Below are positions 45,299-56,890 of a stretch of DNA of 64,000 nt, piece after piece. How positions within the stretch are numbered: position 1 is the stretch's first letter; every line of letters begins with the position of its first letter. Under the pieces are notes generated by a model. That model searched no databases. It saw only the letters and a program-made list of their open reading frames with translations, and was not told the origin of the DNA. A program made the position numbers and the translations under genes. Source of the stretch: Methylophilales bacterium MBRSF5 (lineage in GTDB: Bacteria; Pseudomonadota; Gammaproteobacteria; Burkholderiales; Methylophilaceae); contig CP011001.1 of the NCBI GenBank assembly GCA_001044335.1, positions 1 through 64,000 on the forward strand, in the 5' to 3' direction.

Positions 45299-46543
45299 AT
45301 GGCAAATAAATCAACAATTCTTATCATTGATGATGAAAAAGATATCCGAGAGTCCTTATCAGAAATATTACTTGATGAAGGTTATGAAACATATTTGGCG
45401 GCAGATGCAAATGAAGCAAGAAAATTAATAAAGCAAGAAAATAATGTAGATATTATTTTATTAGATATCTGGATGCCTGACTGCGATGGAATTACTTTGC
45501 TCAAAGAGCTAAAGGCCAGTCAAAAATTAAAACAACCCATTATTATGATGTCAGGTCATGGAACAATAGATACAGCGATTGAGGCGACCAAAAATGGTGC
45601 CTTTGATTTTATTGAAAAGCCAATTTCGCTGCACAAAGTTTTGAAAGTTTTGAATGATGCAATTAATGAGTCATTAGATTTCAATACCTTATCCATTGAG
45701 TTTCTAAAAAATAACAAAGATAAAGAGTTGTTGGATGTATATAAAAAGCTAAACGAAAAGGAAAATCACCAATTTTTTAAAACTAATTGTAAGGATGCCC
45801 TTTATTCCTTTTTATCTTCAAATAAAGATCAAGTATTTAAGATTGATCAATCATCAATAAAAAAAATTGATAACTGCGAATCTTTTTTAGAGGAAAAGAA
45901 AAATTCTTTAATAATTTTTGAAAATTTTTCTGATTACAATGAGAATGCCGTGTCGATATTCAAGATCATTGAATCCAAGACAAAAAAATATAACGTAAAA
46001 ATAGCCATTAATAGTGATGTTGATTTAACGGAAGAATATAAACAAAAAATTAATTTCTCAGATTTTTCTATTATTGACTTCAAAGTGTTTGGCCAGCATG
46101 ATGATGATAAGCTAATCAAATCAGCTAGAGAAATTCTTACTTATCATTTAAATTTTGTTTCTAATAAAATATATAAAGAGTTTGATATTACTTTTTTAAA
46201 TAAAATTAGATCGGATAAAAATTGTTATGACATTTTATATCTTGATCAGATAATTAGAAATTGTCTAAAATTTGCTCATGGAGAAATTATTGATGAGGAA
46301 GACTATCTCAATGCTATTAAATTAAGCCCAGTTAATTTTCATGAGCTTTCAACGCAAAATAATCCTATTGAACATCTTTATGGCATGGAGCTTAAAAGTG
46401 CAAGAGAAGAGTTTGATAAACTTTATTTGAAACATCATTTGGATAACAACGTCAGCATGAAAGACTTATCAATGGTTTCTGGTGTTGAAAGAACCCATCT
46501 TTATAGAAAACTAAAACAACTAGGACTTAAAAACTCAAAGTAA
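45299..46543 (+). CDS. ntrX: NtrX-type response regulator with degenerate AAA+ domain
   Basis: The receiver domain (residues 1-120) is normal, with phospho-Asp in LLDIWMPDCDG and KP in FIEKPISL. The C-terminus is a Fis-type HTH (SMVSGVERTHLYRKLKQLGL). Between them, residues ~140-370 should be a sigma54-activating AAA+ domain, but no Walker A (GxxGxGKE), no GAFTGA loop and no Walker B Asp-Glu is visible. It therefore probably cannot activate sigma54 and may act as a plain DNA-binding regulator. It overlaps convergent xth by 17 nt. Confidence 0.9.
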   Translation: MANKSTILIIDDEKDIRESLSEILLDEGYETYLAADANEARKLIKQENNVDIILLDIWMPDCDGITLLKELKASQKLKQPIIMMSGHGTIDTAIEATKNGAFDFIEKPISLHKVLKVLNDAINESLDFNTLSIEFLKNNKDKELLDVYKKLNEKENHQFFKTNCKDALYSFLSSNKDQVFKIDQSSIKKIDNCESFLEEKKNSLIIFENFSDYNENAVSIFKIIESKTKKYNVKIAINSDVDLTEEYKQKINFSDFSIIDFKVFGQHDDDKLIKSAREILTYHLNFVSNKIYKEFDITFLNKIRSDKNCYDILYLDQIIRNCLKFAHGEIIDEEDYLNAIKLSPVNFHELSTQNNPIEHLYGMELKSAREEFDKLYLKHHLDNNVSMKDLSMVSGVERTHLYRKLKQLGLKNSK

Positions 46544-49319: not shown

Positions 49320-51032
49320 TTAATTATTAAGATTATTGATTAAATTTTCAATTTCAATTTTATCGTGAGTATTCAGAATTTTCTTGGCTTTCGATTTTAA
49401 TTTTGAAAACTCAGATTCTAAGATTACTTTTTTTACTTTTAGAAGGCTTGACGGATGCATTGAGAAATTTGTTAAGCCAATCCCAATAAGTAATTTAGTT
49501 AATTTTGGATCTCCTGCCATCTCACCACATAGAGACACTTCGATACCTGCTTTAGTTCCGGCATCAATTACTCCTTTTATCAATTTAAGAAGTGCAGGAT
49601 GAGATGAATCGTATAAATGTGATACGGCATCATCTGTTCTATCAACAGCTAAAGTATATTGAATTAAATCATTTGTACCAATTGAAAGAAAGTCTAATTG
49701 AGAAGCAAAGCTTTCCGCATCAATGGCTGCCGCCGGTACTTCAATCATTCCTCCAATTAGCGTTTTAGAATTAAATTTTTTTCTTTCCGAAGTAAGTATA
49801 TCTTTTGCTCGCTCAATTAAGAGTTTTACTTGCCTGAGTTCGTTATTAGAGCTGAGCATGGGTATTAATATTCTAATGTTGCCATAATGTGAGGCTCTAA
49901 GTAATGCTTTCATCTGTGTGATGAACACATCAGGCTCTGCTAAACAAAATCTTATAGCTCTAAGACCAAGTGCAGGATTTTGATTTGTATTAGGCATGTG
50001 CTCAATAACTTTATCACCCCCTGAATCAAGTGTTCTAATAGTTATTATCTTATTAGGTAACGCTTTTGTTAAGTTTCTATAAATTGTGAATTGCTCATTT
50101 TCATCGAGCATACGATGTTTATCCATAAAAATAAATTCAGTTCTAAATAATCCAACACCCTTTGTATTATTTTCCATTACAGGTTCAGTGTTATTAGTAT
50201 CTTCAATATTTACATATAAATTTACAGACACCTTATCAATGGTTTTTGACGTGAGTTTTTGTAGACTAAGTAATTTTTTACTTTCTAATTCATATAAGTT
50301 TTGTTTTAACTTGTATTCATTTATGACTTCATCGGTTGGATTAATAATAACGCAGCCATGGTCTCCATCAACAATCAAATTATCACCGTTTGATATCAAG
50401 TTTTTAGCATTTTGTGTTCCAACCACTGAGGGTATGTTAATACTTTTAGCTAGAATAGCTGTATGAGATGTGGTTCCTCCAATATCTGTAACAAACGCAA
50501 TATTATTGCTATTTTTAAATTTAAGAGCATCTGCAGGAGAAATATCATGTGCAACAATAATTCTATTTTTATCACTAGATAATTGTTTAGATTCATGACC
50601 AATTAAATATTTAATCAATGTTTCACAGACTTGATAAATATCATTTTTTCTTTCACGAATGTAACTATTTTCAATTGAATTAAATTTATTAATTATTTCT
50701 TCCATTTGAACTTTTAATGACCACTCAGCATTTTGCTTGGATTTTTTTATGAGTTCTAATGGATTTTTTGAAATTTTTGGGTCATTAATTATGGCTAATT
50801 GCACATCGATGAATGACCCATATTCACCCATTTTATTTTTTTTCAGTTCTTTTTTTAAACTTAATAGCTCACTTTTCAGTTGTTTAATAGCTTGGTTAAA
50901 ACGTTTAATTTCATTTGTAATATTTTTTTGAGTAATAGTGTAAGGTTCGACTTCATTTAATGCGTGTGCTAAGATATAGGCTTTACCAATTGCCACACCT
51001 GAACTGACAGGTATTCCAGAGACAATTAACAA
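49320..51032 (-). CDS. ptsI: PTS enzyme I
   Basis: The 570-residue phosphotransferase has the phospho-His in GGTTSHTAILAKS, the PEP-binding region GVGLFRTEFIFM, and the C-terminal catalytic Cys in VSLCGEMAGD. It phosphorylates HPr from PEP. It starts one base after ptsH. Confidence 0.97.
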   Translation of the reverse strand: MLIVSGIPVSSGVAIGKAYILAHALNEVEPYTITQKNITNEIKRFNQAIKQLKSELLSLKKELKKNKMGEYGSFIDVQLAIINDPKISKNPLELIKKSKQNAEWSLKVQMEEIINKFNSIENSYIRERKNDIYQVCETLIKYLIGHESKQLSSDKNRIIVAHDISPADALKFKNSNNIAFVTDIGGTTSHTAILAKSINIPSVVGTQNAKNLISNGDNLIVDGDHGCVIINPTDEVINEYKLKQNLYELESKKLLSLQKLTSKTIDKVSVNLYVNIEDTNNTEPVMENNTKGVGLFRTEFIFMDKHRMLDENEQFTIYRNLTKALPNKIITIRTLDSGGDKVIEHMPNTNQNPALGLRAIRFCLAEPDVFITQMKALLRASHYGNIRILIPMLSSNNELRQVKLLIERAKDILTSERKKFNSKTLIGGMIEVPAAAIDAESFASQLDFLSIGTNDLIQYTLAVDRTDDAVSHLYDSSHPALLKLIKGVIDAGTKAGIEVSLCGEMAGDPKLTKLLIGIGLTNFSMHPSSLLKVKKVILESEFSKLKSKAKKILNTHDKIEIENLINNLNN

Positions 51033-51302
51033 TTACTTCCCCTCACCAAATAAATTATTAATTAACTTTTCTATAGACTCTAATGCTTTTTTCTCATCGA
51101 CGCCACTTATTCTGATGGTAAAAGAATCATGAATTCCAATTGATAGCAGAAGAATGTCCATCATATTTTTACAATCAATAATTTGATCATTAAAGATAAT
51201 TTCAATCTTCGATTTAAACTTAGCAGCTTCAGTTGATAATTTATTTGAAGCTCTTGCGTGAAGGCCTAGTTCATTCTTGATAGTAAGATTTTTTTTAATC
51301 AT
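51033..51302 (-). CDS. ptsH: HPr phosphocarrier lacking Ser46
   Basis: The 89-residue HPr has the phospho-His15 in GLHARAS. At position 46, where HPr kinase targets a Ser (usual motif K-S-I-M), it has Asn (CKNMMDILLL). The gene for HPr kinase, hprK, is absent from the cluster where betaproteobacteria normally have it. The regulatory Ser phosphorylation is thus gone on both sides. Overlaps the EIIA gene by 4 nt. Confidence 0.93.
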   Translation of the reverse strand: MIKKNLTIKNELGLHARASNKLSTEAAKFKSKIEIIFNDQIIDCKNMMDILLLSIGIHDSFTIRISGVDEKKALESIEKLINNLFGEGK

Positions 51303-51679
51303 AAAAAATTAATGATGGATTTGTTTCCACATTTAATAATTTCATCCACCATGGTTTGTATGTCATTTGTTTTAAATGTAACGGCTTTCATTAACATTGG
51401 CAAATTCAACCCTGATATGGCATAAATATTTTCTTGCGACGTATGTTTTTTGACGATATTGCTAGAAGAGGCACCATATAAGTCTGTAAGAATAATTATC
51501 TCGCAATCTTTATTTTTATTTACATATGCATCAAGCTCTTTTTTTGATACATCAATATCTGAAGAATTTAATGAAATAATATCAATTAAGTTGTTATATT
51601 TTTTTTGTAAATTCTTCTCAACACACTCAACAAGTGATTGACCAAGATTGCCATGAGTAATTAATAAAAATCTAAACAT
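51299..51679 (-). CDS. PTS EIIA, mannose family (regulatory)
   Basis: The 126-residue domain has the active-site His9 in LLITHGNLGQSL and ILTDLYGASSSNI. No EIIB or EIIC gene is nearby, so it probably serves regulation, as in other betaproteobacterial PTS clusters. It overlaps rapZ by 8 nt. Confidence 0.88.
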   Translation of the reverse strand: MFRFLLITHGNLGQSLVECVEKNLQKKYNNLIDIISLNSSDIDVSKKELDAYVNKNKDCEIIILTDLYGASSSNIVKKHTSQENIYAISGLNLPMLMKAVTFKTNDIQTMVDEIIKCGNKSIINFL

Positions 51680-52514
51680 CTAATTCTCGATGAAAAGTGG
51701 ATACATGCAGATCATTATTATTACTTTTAATAATATTTGCAATTTCCTCTGTTACAAAGACTGATCTATGCCTTCCTCCTGTGCATCCAAATCCAATTGC
51801 AAGATATTTTCTTCCTTGGAGCGCATATTTTCTTATTCGTGGTCTCAAAAAAGATGAGATATCTTGAATGATTTCTTTGGTTTCTTCGAATTCTAGTAAG
51901 TATTTTTTAAGAGACAAATCTAATCCTGTAAGATTTTTAAGATCATCTTTATAAAACGGGTTTGGTAATTCTCTAACATCAAAAATAAAATCAATATCTA
52001 ATGGAATTGCTTTTTTATAAGCAAAAGATGAAAGGTGAATATGAAAACTTAATTTTGAATCAATAAGATCATTTATTTTTACATTAAGTGAAGTTAAGTT
52101 TAGATTGCTGGTATCAATATGAATATAATCGTCCTCTAGCATGCTTAAAATTTCTTGATCTTTAACTATGGCTTCTCGTAAGCTTGTCTTATTTTTACTA
52201 AGTGGATGCTTTCTTCTGGATTCATTAAATCGTTTGATAATTTGTTCAATACTTGCTGTTAAAAAAATTAACTTAAATGAAACTTTTAAATGTTTTAATT
52301 CTTCTAAAATTAATGGAAGCATTTCAATATTAAGAGATCGGCTATCAATACTTATTGCAACTGATTTGATTTGGTTATTACCTAGATCTTGAATTGCATT
52401 GGGTAAAAGTTTGGCAGGCAGGTTATCAATACAATAATAGTTATTATCTTCAAAAGTTCTTAGTGCATTCGTTTTGCCTGCACCAGACAATCCTGTAATG
52501 ATATATAAATTCAA
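51672..52514 (-). CDS. rapZ: RNase adapter RapZ
   Basis: The 280-residue protein has an N-terminal P-loop (GLSGAGKTNALRTFED) and a C-terminal domain with GCTGGRHRSVFV. RapZ delivers small RNAs to RNase E and controls glucosamine-6-P synthase in enterobacteria. Normal length. Confidence 0.95.
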   Translation of the reverse strand: MNLYIITGLSGAGKTNALRTFEDNNYYCIDNLPAKLLPNAIQDLGNNQIKSVAISIDSRSLNIEMLPLILEELKHLKVSFKLIFLTASIEQIIKRFNESRRKHPLSKNKTSLREAIVKDQEILSMLEDDYIHIDTSNLNLTSLNVKINDLIDSKLSFHIHLSSFAYKKAIPLDIDFIFDVRELPNPFYKDDLKNLTGLDLSLKKYLLEFEETKEIIQDISSFLRPRIRKYALQGRKYLAIGFGCTGGRHRSVFVTEEIANIIKSNNNDLHVSTFHRELDV

Positions 52515-52517
52515 AAA

Positions 52518-52841
52518 TTATTGGTTGTGTTTTCTAACAACCCCCTCAGACTGGTGGTGATCTTTTGCCTTTTCTTTAATTTTAATAACTTGTCTATCTA
52601 TTTTGTGAATCAAATCATCTATAACTTTGTACATGTCTGATCCAGATGCGTCGCTGAAGATTTCGTTATGCATCAGATGTAATTTACATTCAGCAATGTG
52701 ATGATGATTCTCTGTTTTTAAAATAAACTTAACATCAGTTATATTTTCAAAATGTCTTGTTATTTTATTAAATTTTTCATGAATTAGTGATTCAAGAGCT
52801 TCAGTTATTTCAATGTTTTGGCCTGTGATTGTGATATCCAT
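52518..52841 (-). CDS. hpf: ribosome hibernation promoting factor (short form)
   Basis: The 107-residue protein begins MDITITGQNIEITEAL and has HHIAECKLHL and DMYKVIDDLIHKIDRQVIK, the short HPF/YfiA type. It inactivates ribosomes at rest. Directly downstream of rpoN, as usual; ptsN, which normally follows, is missing. Confidence 0.95.
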   Translation of the reverse strand: MDITITGQNIEITEALESLIHEKFNKITRHFENITDVKFILKTENHHHIAECKLHLMHNEIFSDASGSDMYKVIDDLIHKIDRQVIKIKEKAKDHHQSEGVVRKHNQ

Positions 52842-52845
52842 TTAT

Positions 52846-54114
52846 TTAAGTACCTTTCTTTCGTTTTGAAGCAGATAATATCTCCAGCTGTTCGCGATAT
52901 TTGGCAACTGTTCTTCTACTGATTGTAATATTTTCTTTGCCAAGTGTTAAGAGAATTTGAGAATCAGACAATGGTTTGGCTTTATCTTCATGTCTAATAA
53001 TAGCCTTAATTTTATCTAATATGGCTTTGTTTGAAGTGTTGTTTACCTCATTTACGAAAAAATATTTTAATTCAAAAATACCATGAGGCGTCTCAATGAA
53101 TTTATTATTTACAATTCTACTAACCGTTGATTCATGAATCTCTAGTTCTTTCGCAATTGTTTTAATATTCAAAGAAGACTTTAAAATATTTTTATTTAAA
53201 AACTCTTTATGGTGAGAGAAGATACAATTAACAACCCTGATAATATTAATTTTTCTATAATTTAAATTCTTTATGAACCACTTTGCTTGATTGTATAAGT
53301 CTTTATCATCAACCTCATCTTTTTTTAAATTAAATAATTTAAGAGAGTCATAATTATTCTTTAGTGAAATATCAAATTTACTCCCATTATTTTTTATGAT
53401 TATATCTGGGGTGATAAATTGAGATGTATCTGATGAGAGATAGGCAAGCCCAGGTTTTGGATTTAGGGACACTATAAACTCATTGCATTTAATAATGTGA
53501 TCGGGTGGAAGGTTTATATTTTTCGCAATTTTTTTGAAATTTTTATTTGCTAAGTCTGCTAAATGATTTTCAATAATTTTTTTTGAGTCTAATGCAACTT
53601 GATTTCGAATAAATTGATCAAGTTGAAAGATCAAACATTCTTTTAAGTTTCTGGCACCAATACCTGGAGATGAAATAGTATTTAACTTCAAAATAAGATT
53701 CTTAATTTTTTTATTAGCTGTATCAGAATCAAGGGCTAATTCTGTAATGAAGAAATCATAATCTTCTTTCAAATATCCATTATCATCAATATAATCAATA
53801 ATTAACCGTGCTAATACTTCATCCTCATAATCAAGCCCTAAATCAAATAAATTATTTAATAAATAATCCTTAAGGCTAAATCCATAAATATTATTTTCTG
53901 AAATATTTTCTTCATTATTTTCAATAACGCTAGCGGAATAATTAAGATTAAATTTTTCTGAATCATCTAGCTGTAAGTAAGGGTTCTTGGATAAAAAGTC
54001 ATTAATTAATAATTCAATTTCAATTTCATTAGATTTCAGTAAATTAACTGATTGTTCAATATTTGGTGATAATTTAAGTGAATTTTTGAGTCTTAAATGA
54101 GCGCTTAATGCCAT
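52846..54114 (-). CDS. rpoN: RNA polymerase sigma-54 factor
   Basis: The 422-residue factor has region I (LRLKNSLKLSPNIEQSVNLL), the core-binding domain, the HTH (KELEIHESTVSRIVNNK) and the RpoN box (SRRTVAKYREQL). It is shorter than the usual ~480 residues, mainly in the acidic region II. NtrX, the one candidate activator in the window, lacks a working AAA+ domain. Confidence 0.96.
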   Translation of the reverse strand: MALSAHLRLKNSLKLSPNIEQSVNLLKSNEIEIELLINDFLSKNPYLQLDDSEKFNLNYSASVIENNEENISENNIYGFSLKDYLLNNLFDLGLDYEDEVLARLIIDYIDDNGYLKEDYDFFITELALDSDTANKKIKNLILKLNTISSPGIGARNLKECLIFQLDQFIRNQVALDSKKIIENHLADLANKNFKKIAKNINLPPDHIIKCNEFIVSLNPKPGLAYLSSDTSQFITPDIIIKNNGSKFDISLKNNYDSLKLFNLKKDEVDDKDLYNQAKWFIKNLNYRKINIIRVVNCIFSHHKEFLNKNILKSSLNIKTIAKELEIHESTVSRIVNNKFIETPHGIFELKYFFVNEVNNTSNKAILDKIKAIIRHEDKAKPLSDSQILLTLGKENITISRRTVAKYREQLEILSASKRKKGT

Positions 54115-55350: not shown

Positions 55351-55906
55351 AATGTACTCTCACAGAATCATATATTTTTATGATTCCTGTTTTTTTATTA
55401 TAGTTAAAACCTACTCCGTCAATTTCTATATTGGGCTCCTGAATAATTTTAATTTTTTGATCAGAGGATAAAATTTCTTTATCAGGCACGATTGTGATTT
55501 CATTAGATAATAATTTCATTACTTTTTTTGATTTGGTTTCATGCCTTATCATCTGTGCATCATCAAGCATTTTTATTTTTTCACCATTATCATAAATAAC
55601 GCCTTTGTTACTTATTAAATCTAAAACTTTTTTCTTTTCTTCAAATTTTTTAAATACGGGTTTCTTTAAAATAGATTCATCACTGTAAGAAAAATAATTC
55701 ATCTGTATAGCTTCTAGAGAAAAATTTAAGTTTCCAAGATCATCTGTTTGTTTGGAAATAAAATTTTTTAAAAAATAATCTGGATTATTAGTTAATTTTT
55801 TTTCTTCAATATTCAATTCTTTTTTTACTTCATTATTTAGCCAGAATGAAATAATTGAAATTATCACAAGAAAAACCATTGAAAAGAAAATTGAATATTT
55901 ACTCAT
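55340..55906 (-). CDS. lptC: LPS export protein LptC
   Basis: One N-terminal membrane helix (IFFSMVFLVIISIISFWL) anchors a periplasmic jellyroll of about 160 residues (NLNFSLEAIQMNYFSYSD; GVGFNYNKKTGIIKIYD). It passes LPS from LptBFG to LptA. Family and position are clear. Confidence 0.9.
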   Translation of the reverse strand: MSKYSIFFSMVFLVIISIISFWLNNEVKKELNIEEKKLTNNPDYFLKNFISKQTDDLGNLNFSLEAIQMNYFSYSDESILKKPVFKKFEEKKKVLDLISNKGVIYDNGEKIKMLDDAQMIRHETKSKKVMKLLSNEITIVPDKEILSSDQKIKIIQEPNIEIDGVGFNYNKKTGIIKIYDSVRVHYDK

Positions 55907-55909
55907 TAA

Positions 55910-56890
55910 TTAAATGACTTTATTTATCAATAAATCCTGGAAATTAATCACACCTACAAGATCATCTTTGTTATCAACGACTACTAAACTGGATATTTTA
56001 TTTTTTTCCATTAATTCTGCCGCAGATGTTGCTAAATTATGTTCATTAATAAAAAAAGGATTTGTACTCATCCACTTTGAAATTTCATCTGAGATAGATG
56101 CCTCTTTCAAAATGGATCTTCTCAGATCTCCATCAGTAAAGATACCTAAATATTTTAATTTATCAGCCACAATGGCATAACCCACTTTTTTTTCTGTAAT
56201 TAATTTAATTGTTTGTTTTAGACTATCGCTCGGATTAACTACAGGCACTTCACTAATGCTCCTCATCACCTCTTTAACTTTTATAAATTTATTTTTTCCT
56301 AAAGCACCACCAGGATGAGATTTTAAAAAATCTTCAGCTGTGAAACCTTTTAATTGGAATAAGGAAATAGCAATTGCATCTCCTATGGCTAACATTAGCG
56401 CTGAACTTGCAGTGGGAGCTAAACCTAAGGGGCATGCCTCGGTCGATACCTTTGAGGAAATATGATGATCAGCATATTTAGCAATCTCAGATTTTTCATT
56501 GCTAGTGATAGCAACTATTGACGCCCCAATTCTTTTTATACTTGGAATTAGGTTATAGATTTCATTGCTTTCACCAGAGTTTGACAGAAAGATAACAATA
56601 TCATTATGAGTTATCATCCCGAGGTCGCCATGACTAGCTTCACCAGGGTGCATAAAAAAAGCCGGTGATCCAGTGCTGGATAAAGTTGAGGCAATTTTGC
56701 CAGCAATATGACCAGACTTACCCATTCCGCTTAAGATGATTCGCCCACTACATTCACTAAGTTTAATAATAATGTCGGCAAAATTTTCATCAATAAATTT
56801 TTGAGCAATATTAATTTCTATAGATTCAATATCAAGGACTTTTTTGGCAGAACCTATTATTGATTTTTTGATATCATTCATAAATAACAT
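55910..56890 (-). CDS. kdsD: arabinose-5-phosphate isomerase
   Basis: The 326-residue protein has a SIS domain (RIILSGMGKSGHIAGKIA; HPGEASHGDLGMI) and two CBS domains (about residues 205-325). It makes arabinose-5-P for Kdo. An ATG at 56881 is an alternative start. kdsC, which usually follows kdsD, is absent: lptC starts 3 nt downstream. Confidence 0.95.
   Translation of the reverse strand: MLFMNDIKKSIIGSAKKVLDIESIEINIAQKFIDENFADIIIKLSECSGRIILSGMGKSGHIAGKIASTLSSTGSPAFFMHPGEASHGDLGMITHNDIVIFLSNSGESNEIYNLIPSIKRIGASIVAITSNEKSEIAKYADHHISSKVSTEACPLGLAPTASSALMLAIGDAIAISLFQLKGFTAEDFLKSHPGGALGKNKFIKVKEVMRSISEVPVVNPSDSLKQTIKLITEKKVGYAIVADKLKYLGIFTDGDLRRSILKEASISDEISKWMSTNPFFINEHNLATSAAELMEKNKISSLVVVDNKDDLVGVINFQDLLINKVI

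Follow-up and report, generated by a model that had tools for sequence, protein, structure and literature searches.

Loss of hprK and replacement of HPr Ser46 in the rpoN-linked phosphotransferase gene cluster of an OM43-clade bacterium

RESULTS

Genes at the ptsH locus

The window analyzed here is a stretch of 64,000 nt from Methylophilales bacterium MBRSF5. The source genome, a single contig of 1,352,814 bases (1.35 Mb, 99.99% complete), belongs to the OM43 clade of the Methylophilaceae and is close to KB13; KB13, LSUCC0717 and LSUCC0665 are the named relatives nearest to it. The host is a tiny marine methanol-eating bacterium. From open reading frames and Pfam matches, the order of transcription on the minus strand is lptA, lptB, rpoN, hpf, rapZ, a manX-type EIIA gene, ptsH, ptsI and prlC. 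The genes from rpoN through hpf, rapZ, manX and ptsH to ptsI were assigned by Pfam with scores well over the cut-off, and prlC was assigned from its position and its identity across relatives. The features of the cluster are as follows.

49320..51032, minus strand: ptsI, enzyme I (EI), 570 aa, without a GAF domain, active-site GGTTSHTAIL intact (Pfam)
51033..51302, minus strand: ptsH, HPr, 89 aa, with His15, Asn46 (AAT) and Asp49 instead of Gly49 (PF00381, 76.6 bits)
51165..51167, minus strand: codon 46 of ptsH, AAT (Asn), AGT or AGC in Ser-bearing relatives (position counted from the start of the ORF at 51302)
51299..51679, minus strand: manX-like gene for a mannose-family EIIA, 126 aa, with the active-site His within ITHG (PF03610, 52.5 bits)
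51672..52514, minus strand: rapZ, 280 aa, directly after hpf, at the place of hprK in relatives
52515..52517, no strand: hpf-rapZ junction, 3 bp, the site of hprK in other Methylophilaceae, no remnant
52518..52841, minus strand: hpf, ribosome hibernation promoting factor (Pfam)
52846..54114, minus strand: rpoN, sigma-54, all three domains (Pfam)

The HPr score compares with a cut-off of 23 bits, and His15 lies inside GLHAR. EI matched three PEP-utilizer domains only. The whole window genome encodes one HPr and one EI.

Distribution of hprK and ptsN

Comparisons were made with a family set of 187 Methylophilaceae genomes from 24 genera, in which g1 denotes the genus of the window genome (31 genomes). 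The initial annotation of this DNA held that hprK, the gene for the HPr kinase, had gone from the cluster, and hpf and rapZ are indeed adjacent with 3 bases between them. An hprK elsewhere in the genome would speak against the loss; a search of the whole window genome with PF07475 gave no match, with control genomes positive. A tblastn search of the window and of related loci, with both the short and the full-length HprK as queries, turned up no meaningful remnant, and the positive controls matched. An assembly gap was rejected as the reason for the absence since complete single-contig genomes and all 31 g1 members agree and the junction is intact.

Of the 187 genomes in the family set, 147 carry hprK, and these come from 22 of the 24 genera; the two genera without it are g1 (none of 31 genomes) and g6 (none of six). 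A tree of nine neighboring proteins places g6 outside the clade of g15 and g1 with full support. Since genus g15 has hprK in place, the gene was lost separately in g1 and g6. The g15 gene itself is shortened to 193-194 aa, retaining only the C-terminal domain with the P-loop and signature motif. A C-terminal-domain-only HprK is the alpha-proteobacterial form (PMC2405797), and the truncated HprK of Brucella phosphorylates NPr (PMC2937029). The 193-aa g15 protein resembles this form in lacking the N-terminal domain, but its gene lies in a beta-type cluster and is intermediate between a full-length hprK and none. The g15 loci viewed (L094-L105) carry the short HprK in a beta-proteobacterial-type cluster with motifs mostly intact; at L096 Gly replaces the signature Glu.

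We also searched for ptsN. PF00359 gave no match in the window genome, with control genomes positive, in keeping with the absence that had been noted initially. That the cluster had lost ptsN together with hprK, as was also claimed, does not hold: 181 of the 187 family genomes, the majority of which carry hprK, lack PF00359. The six genomes with a match carry it in ORFs of 474-862 aa, and five of these ORFs exceed 830 aa, a size that fits multi-domain sugar PTS proteins. The clusters of hprK-bearing genera read rpoN-hpf-hprK-rapZ-manX-ptsH-ptsI, without ptsN. Because hprK-bearing relatives nearly all lack PF00359, ptsN must have gone long before hprK.

Residues 46 and 49 of HPr

Position 46 of the window HPr is exactly Asn, as initially described, and its codon is AAT. 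In order to follow this residue through the family, residues 46 and 49 were counted by motif. All 136 HPr proteins from hprK-bearing genomes have Ser46 and Gly49 and read KSIMG(V/I)MML. The same reading was found in all three HPr proteins of g6, which lacks hprK. Among the 20 HPr proteins of g1, 16 read KN(M/I)MDIL(L/M)L (Asn46/Asp49), three read KSIMEVLML (Ser46/Glu49) and one reads KSIMDILML (Ser46/Asp49); the four Ser46-bearing genomes are draft assemblies. The codon for Ser at position 46 is AGT or AGC and that for Asn is AAT or AAC throughout, one transition apart.

Evolution at the two positions was judged by counting changes on the tree and by an AU test. Acidic residue 49 requires one change, and this position turned acidic once, at the base of g1. 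Residue 46 requires three changes under parsimony. The 16 genomes with Asn46 do not form a clade: constraining the group, which was defined by the trait and not taken from the tree, to be monophyletic costs 231 log-likelihood units (p-AU 3e-52). Three Ser-to-Asn changes are equally parsimonious with one such change followed by two reversions. We prefer three independent changes because G-to-A is the expected direction in AT-rich genomes and because the outgroup and sister lineages have Ser; mutation bias thus favors three changes without proving them. Residue 46 apparently changed from Ser to Asn in three separate lineages.

The implication between kinase and target runs one way. Asn46 was seen only where hprK is absent (0 of 136 with hprK), so the expectation that loss of Ser46 would track loss of hprK across the family is borne out in this direction. 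It fails in the other, as Ser46 persists without hprK in 4 of 20 g1 and 3 of 3 g6 proteins. The same counts, along with the scatter of Asn46 over the tree, contradict the proposal that kinase and target were eliminated together. E. coli HPr also retains Ser46 although this organism has no HprK. From g6 and E. coli it follows that losing the kinase allows residue 46 to change and does not force it to. The window protein lacks both marks of an HprK-regulated HPr, Ser46 being absent from the protein and hprK from the window genome and from 31 of 31 g1 genomes. The literature that we found on OM43 and Methylophilaceae makes no mention of hprK, HPr or Ser46.

We also searched 399 genomes from the order with a DNA pattern for an Asn46 HPr; the corresponding pattern that leaves residue 46 free detects 159 of the 161 HPr proteins in the family. 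Matches were obtained in both g1 genomes sampled and in ten genomes from two genera of one other family (L148-L157). In these ten the HPr domain lies within ORFs of 705-791 aa (DAKNMISLLQLG type), which by their layout appear to be FruB-like proteins. Such FruB-type multi-domain PTS proteins share Asn46, in the context (D)(A/G)KN(M/L)I, but theirs is a paralogous domain inside a long ORF and not a ptsH gene. Asn is therefore tolerated at position 46 of HPr domains. Among ptsH genes of the 399-genome sample, a standalone Asn46 HPr is private to g1.

State and type of the remaining relay

What is left of the system was described initially as EI, HPr and EIIA(Man) only, and neither a PF00359 EIIA nor a mannose-type EIIB was found. 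The active-site histidines of HPr, EI and EIIA-Man are kept in the window genome and in nearly all g1 genomes examined. In the KB13 clade, HPr has a dN/dS of 0-0.04, EI one of 0.03-0.06 and EIIA-Man one of 0.05-0.19, compared with 0.01-0.04 for lptB; the HPr values are as low as those of lptB and hpf. Since HPr is under strong purifying selection, the EI-HPr-EIIA(Man) phosphate relay is probably working.

The set does not match a mannose-class permease: the EIIA-Man domain is present (PF03610, 52.5 bits), and the mannose/sorbose-family EIIB (PF03830) was found in none of the 187 family genomes. Nor does it match PTS-Ntr (ptsP-ptsO-ptsN), as there is no EIIA-Ntr (PF00359) and EI has no GAF domain. 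Salcher et al. (PMC6794327) report that no OM43 or Methylopumilus strain has the cellobiose PTS known from a relative. Because of this and the lack of an EIIB in a search that covered the mannose family, the three proteins most likely form a regulatory relay. Incomplete regulatory PTSs with HprK occur in alpha- and beta-proteobacteria and Xanthomonadales, including Brucella (PMC2937029) and Xanthomonas (PMC6916182), and share EI, HPr or NPr, and EIIA-Man without EIIB or EIIC. In Xanthomonas and the beta-proteobacteria their genes lie in the rpoN neighborhood, as here. In Brucella, EIIA-Man binds SucA (PMC2937029). The window system differs from these in having neither HprK nor EIIA-Ntr and in the replacement of Ser46 by Asn; it also differs from Brucella in its EI, the Brucella enzyme having a GAF domain.

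Further losses among relatives

Within g1, rapZ is kept by a KB13-like clade of eight genomes, the window genome included. It was not found in the remaining g1 genomes, in which hpf is followed directly by manX. In four genomes (G011, G009, G030 and G021; loci L142-L145) manX-ptsH-ptsI has been cleanly removed and hpf adjoins prlC. No EI or HPr was found anywhere in these four genomes, of which G011 is a single contig and 96% complete. The module was thus lost stepwise and not by joint deletion: ptsN was gone well before the kinase, the target residue changed repeatedly after the kinase had been lost, and some lineages finally shed the whole relay.

DISCUSSION

The feature described initially is real and correctly placed, with hprK gone and Ser46 replaced, while its main claim, a co-elimination that included ptsN, is not upheld. 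We believe that the observations as a whole are probably best explained by removal of the kinase from a regulatory PTS, followed by repeated replacement of Ser46 with Asn that preserves a helix N-cap, and by stepwise erosion. The starting point would be a permease-less, purely regulatory PTS in which phosphate passes from PEP to EI, HPr and EIIA-Man. Its ATP-dependent brake, phosphorylation of HPr Ser46 by HprK, would have been removed in the g1 ancestor during genome streamlining. In the presence of HprK, residue 46 would have to be Ser for phosphorylation and would also cap the helix; in its absence the Ser46 hydroxyl would have no regulatory task and only the cap would be required.

Ser46 precedes helix B in established HPr structures. 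The predicted structure of the present HPr starts the helix at residue 47, in a low-confidence model (pLDDT 55) built from four near-identical sequences, which is too poor to support an argument. Residue 46 is taken to cap this helix, and that role at the start of helix B is probably still required. A single G-to-A transition (AGY to AAY), which AT-rich drift favors, would lead to Asn46, a good N-cap that cannot be phosphorylated; this apparently happened three times. The change of Gly49 to Asp or Glu, one helical turn on, may complete a motif, N/S-x-x-D/E, that resembles a capping box, or could instead place a permanent negative charge near the surface that faces EI and the EIIAs. The relay through His15 would now be governed only by the supply of PEP and pyruvate, and some lineages would have eroded further, losing rapZ and then the whole manX-ptsH-ptsI set. 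Release from HprK was at best permissive for the change at residue 46. A bolder extension, in which loss of the kinase led to a rebuilding of HPr, is unlikely: acidic residue 49 on the g1 stem and the repeated change of Ser46 to Asn would have remodeled the kinase-facing surface and hard-wired one state of the relay before some lineages discarded it.

Other explanations account for part of these data. HPr residues 46-52 contribute to the surface that EI and the EIIAs contact. Acidic residue 49, fixed on the branch on which hprK was lost, might thus partially mimic phospho-Ser46 and act as a weak permanent brake, with Asn46 as later fine-tuning; Gly49 is invariant in the 136 HPr proteins of hprK-bearing genomes and acidic in 20 of 20 from g1, through one change on the stem. 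We nevertheless consider this quite unlikely, as residues 46 and 49 are one turn apart and a capping box accounts equally well for Asp or Glu. If the relay were simply on its way out, the substitutions would be meaningless, which would suit small AT-rich genomes prone to drift and the several sister genomes without manX-ptsH-ptsI. The selection on HPr in the KB13 clade, the intact active-site histidines and a replacement that is always Asn and is kept throughout each clade make such neutral decay improbable.

A single episode in which hprK, ptsN and Ser46 were all lost agrees with the window genome, where all three are missing. Given the near absence of PF00359 from the family, the Ser46 of four hprK-less g1 members and of g6, and the several origins of Asn46, it is highly improbable. 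Finally, an unrelated Ser/Thr kinase could have taken over and phosphorylate HPr elsewhere, for example at Ser60, in which case the brake would not be lost. The window HPr has Ser60, and in Xanthomonas either Ser46 or Ser60 can be phosphorylated by HprK (PMC6916182), but the close relatives G004, G007 and G023 have Thr at position 60, and we give this reading hardly any credence.

Gamma-proteobacteria lost hprK and manX, hprK likewise from an rpoN-associated cluster (Comas et al. 2008, PMC2405797). Here, by comparison with gamma-proteobacteria, manX is kept and the loss is so recent that its steps are still visible. Residue 46 of HPr changes afterwards, whereas E. coli keeps Ser46. One bacterial family shows every stage: full kinase, shortened kinase, target without kinase, target repeatedly replaced, RapZ lost and relay deleted. 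It is a natural step-by-step record of the dismantling of a signaling module, and it raises a testable general question, the fate of a conserved phosphorylation site once its sole known kinase is gone. In Methylophilaceae an absent Ser46 is a good sign of an absent hprK, while its presence is hardly informative about the kinase.

Other observations around the cluster

The rpoN gene is missing from its usual site between lptB and hpf in G002 (L114) and G003 (L121), and sigma-54 may therefore be dispensable in g1. An NtrX-like response regulator of 414 aa is encoded at 45299-46543 of the window (plus strand). It has a clear receiver domain and a weak C-terminal helix-turn-helix, and in its middle no sigma-54 AAA+ activator domain was recognized above cut-off; the intact rpoN lies 6 kb away. 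The g1 genomes viewed have a similar ORF at the same place. At the kdsD-lptC junction (55906-55910 of the window), kdsC is missing in the window and at every g1 locus viewed; it sits between kdsD and lptC in g15, g6 and g16.
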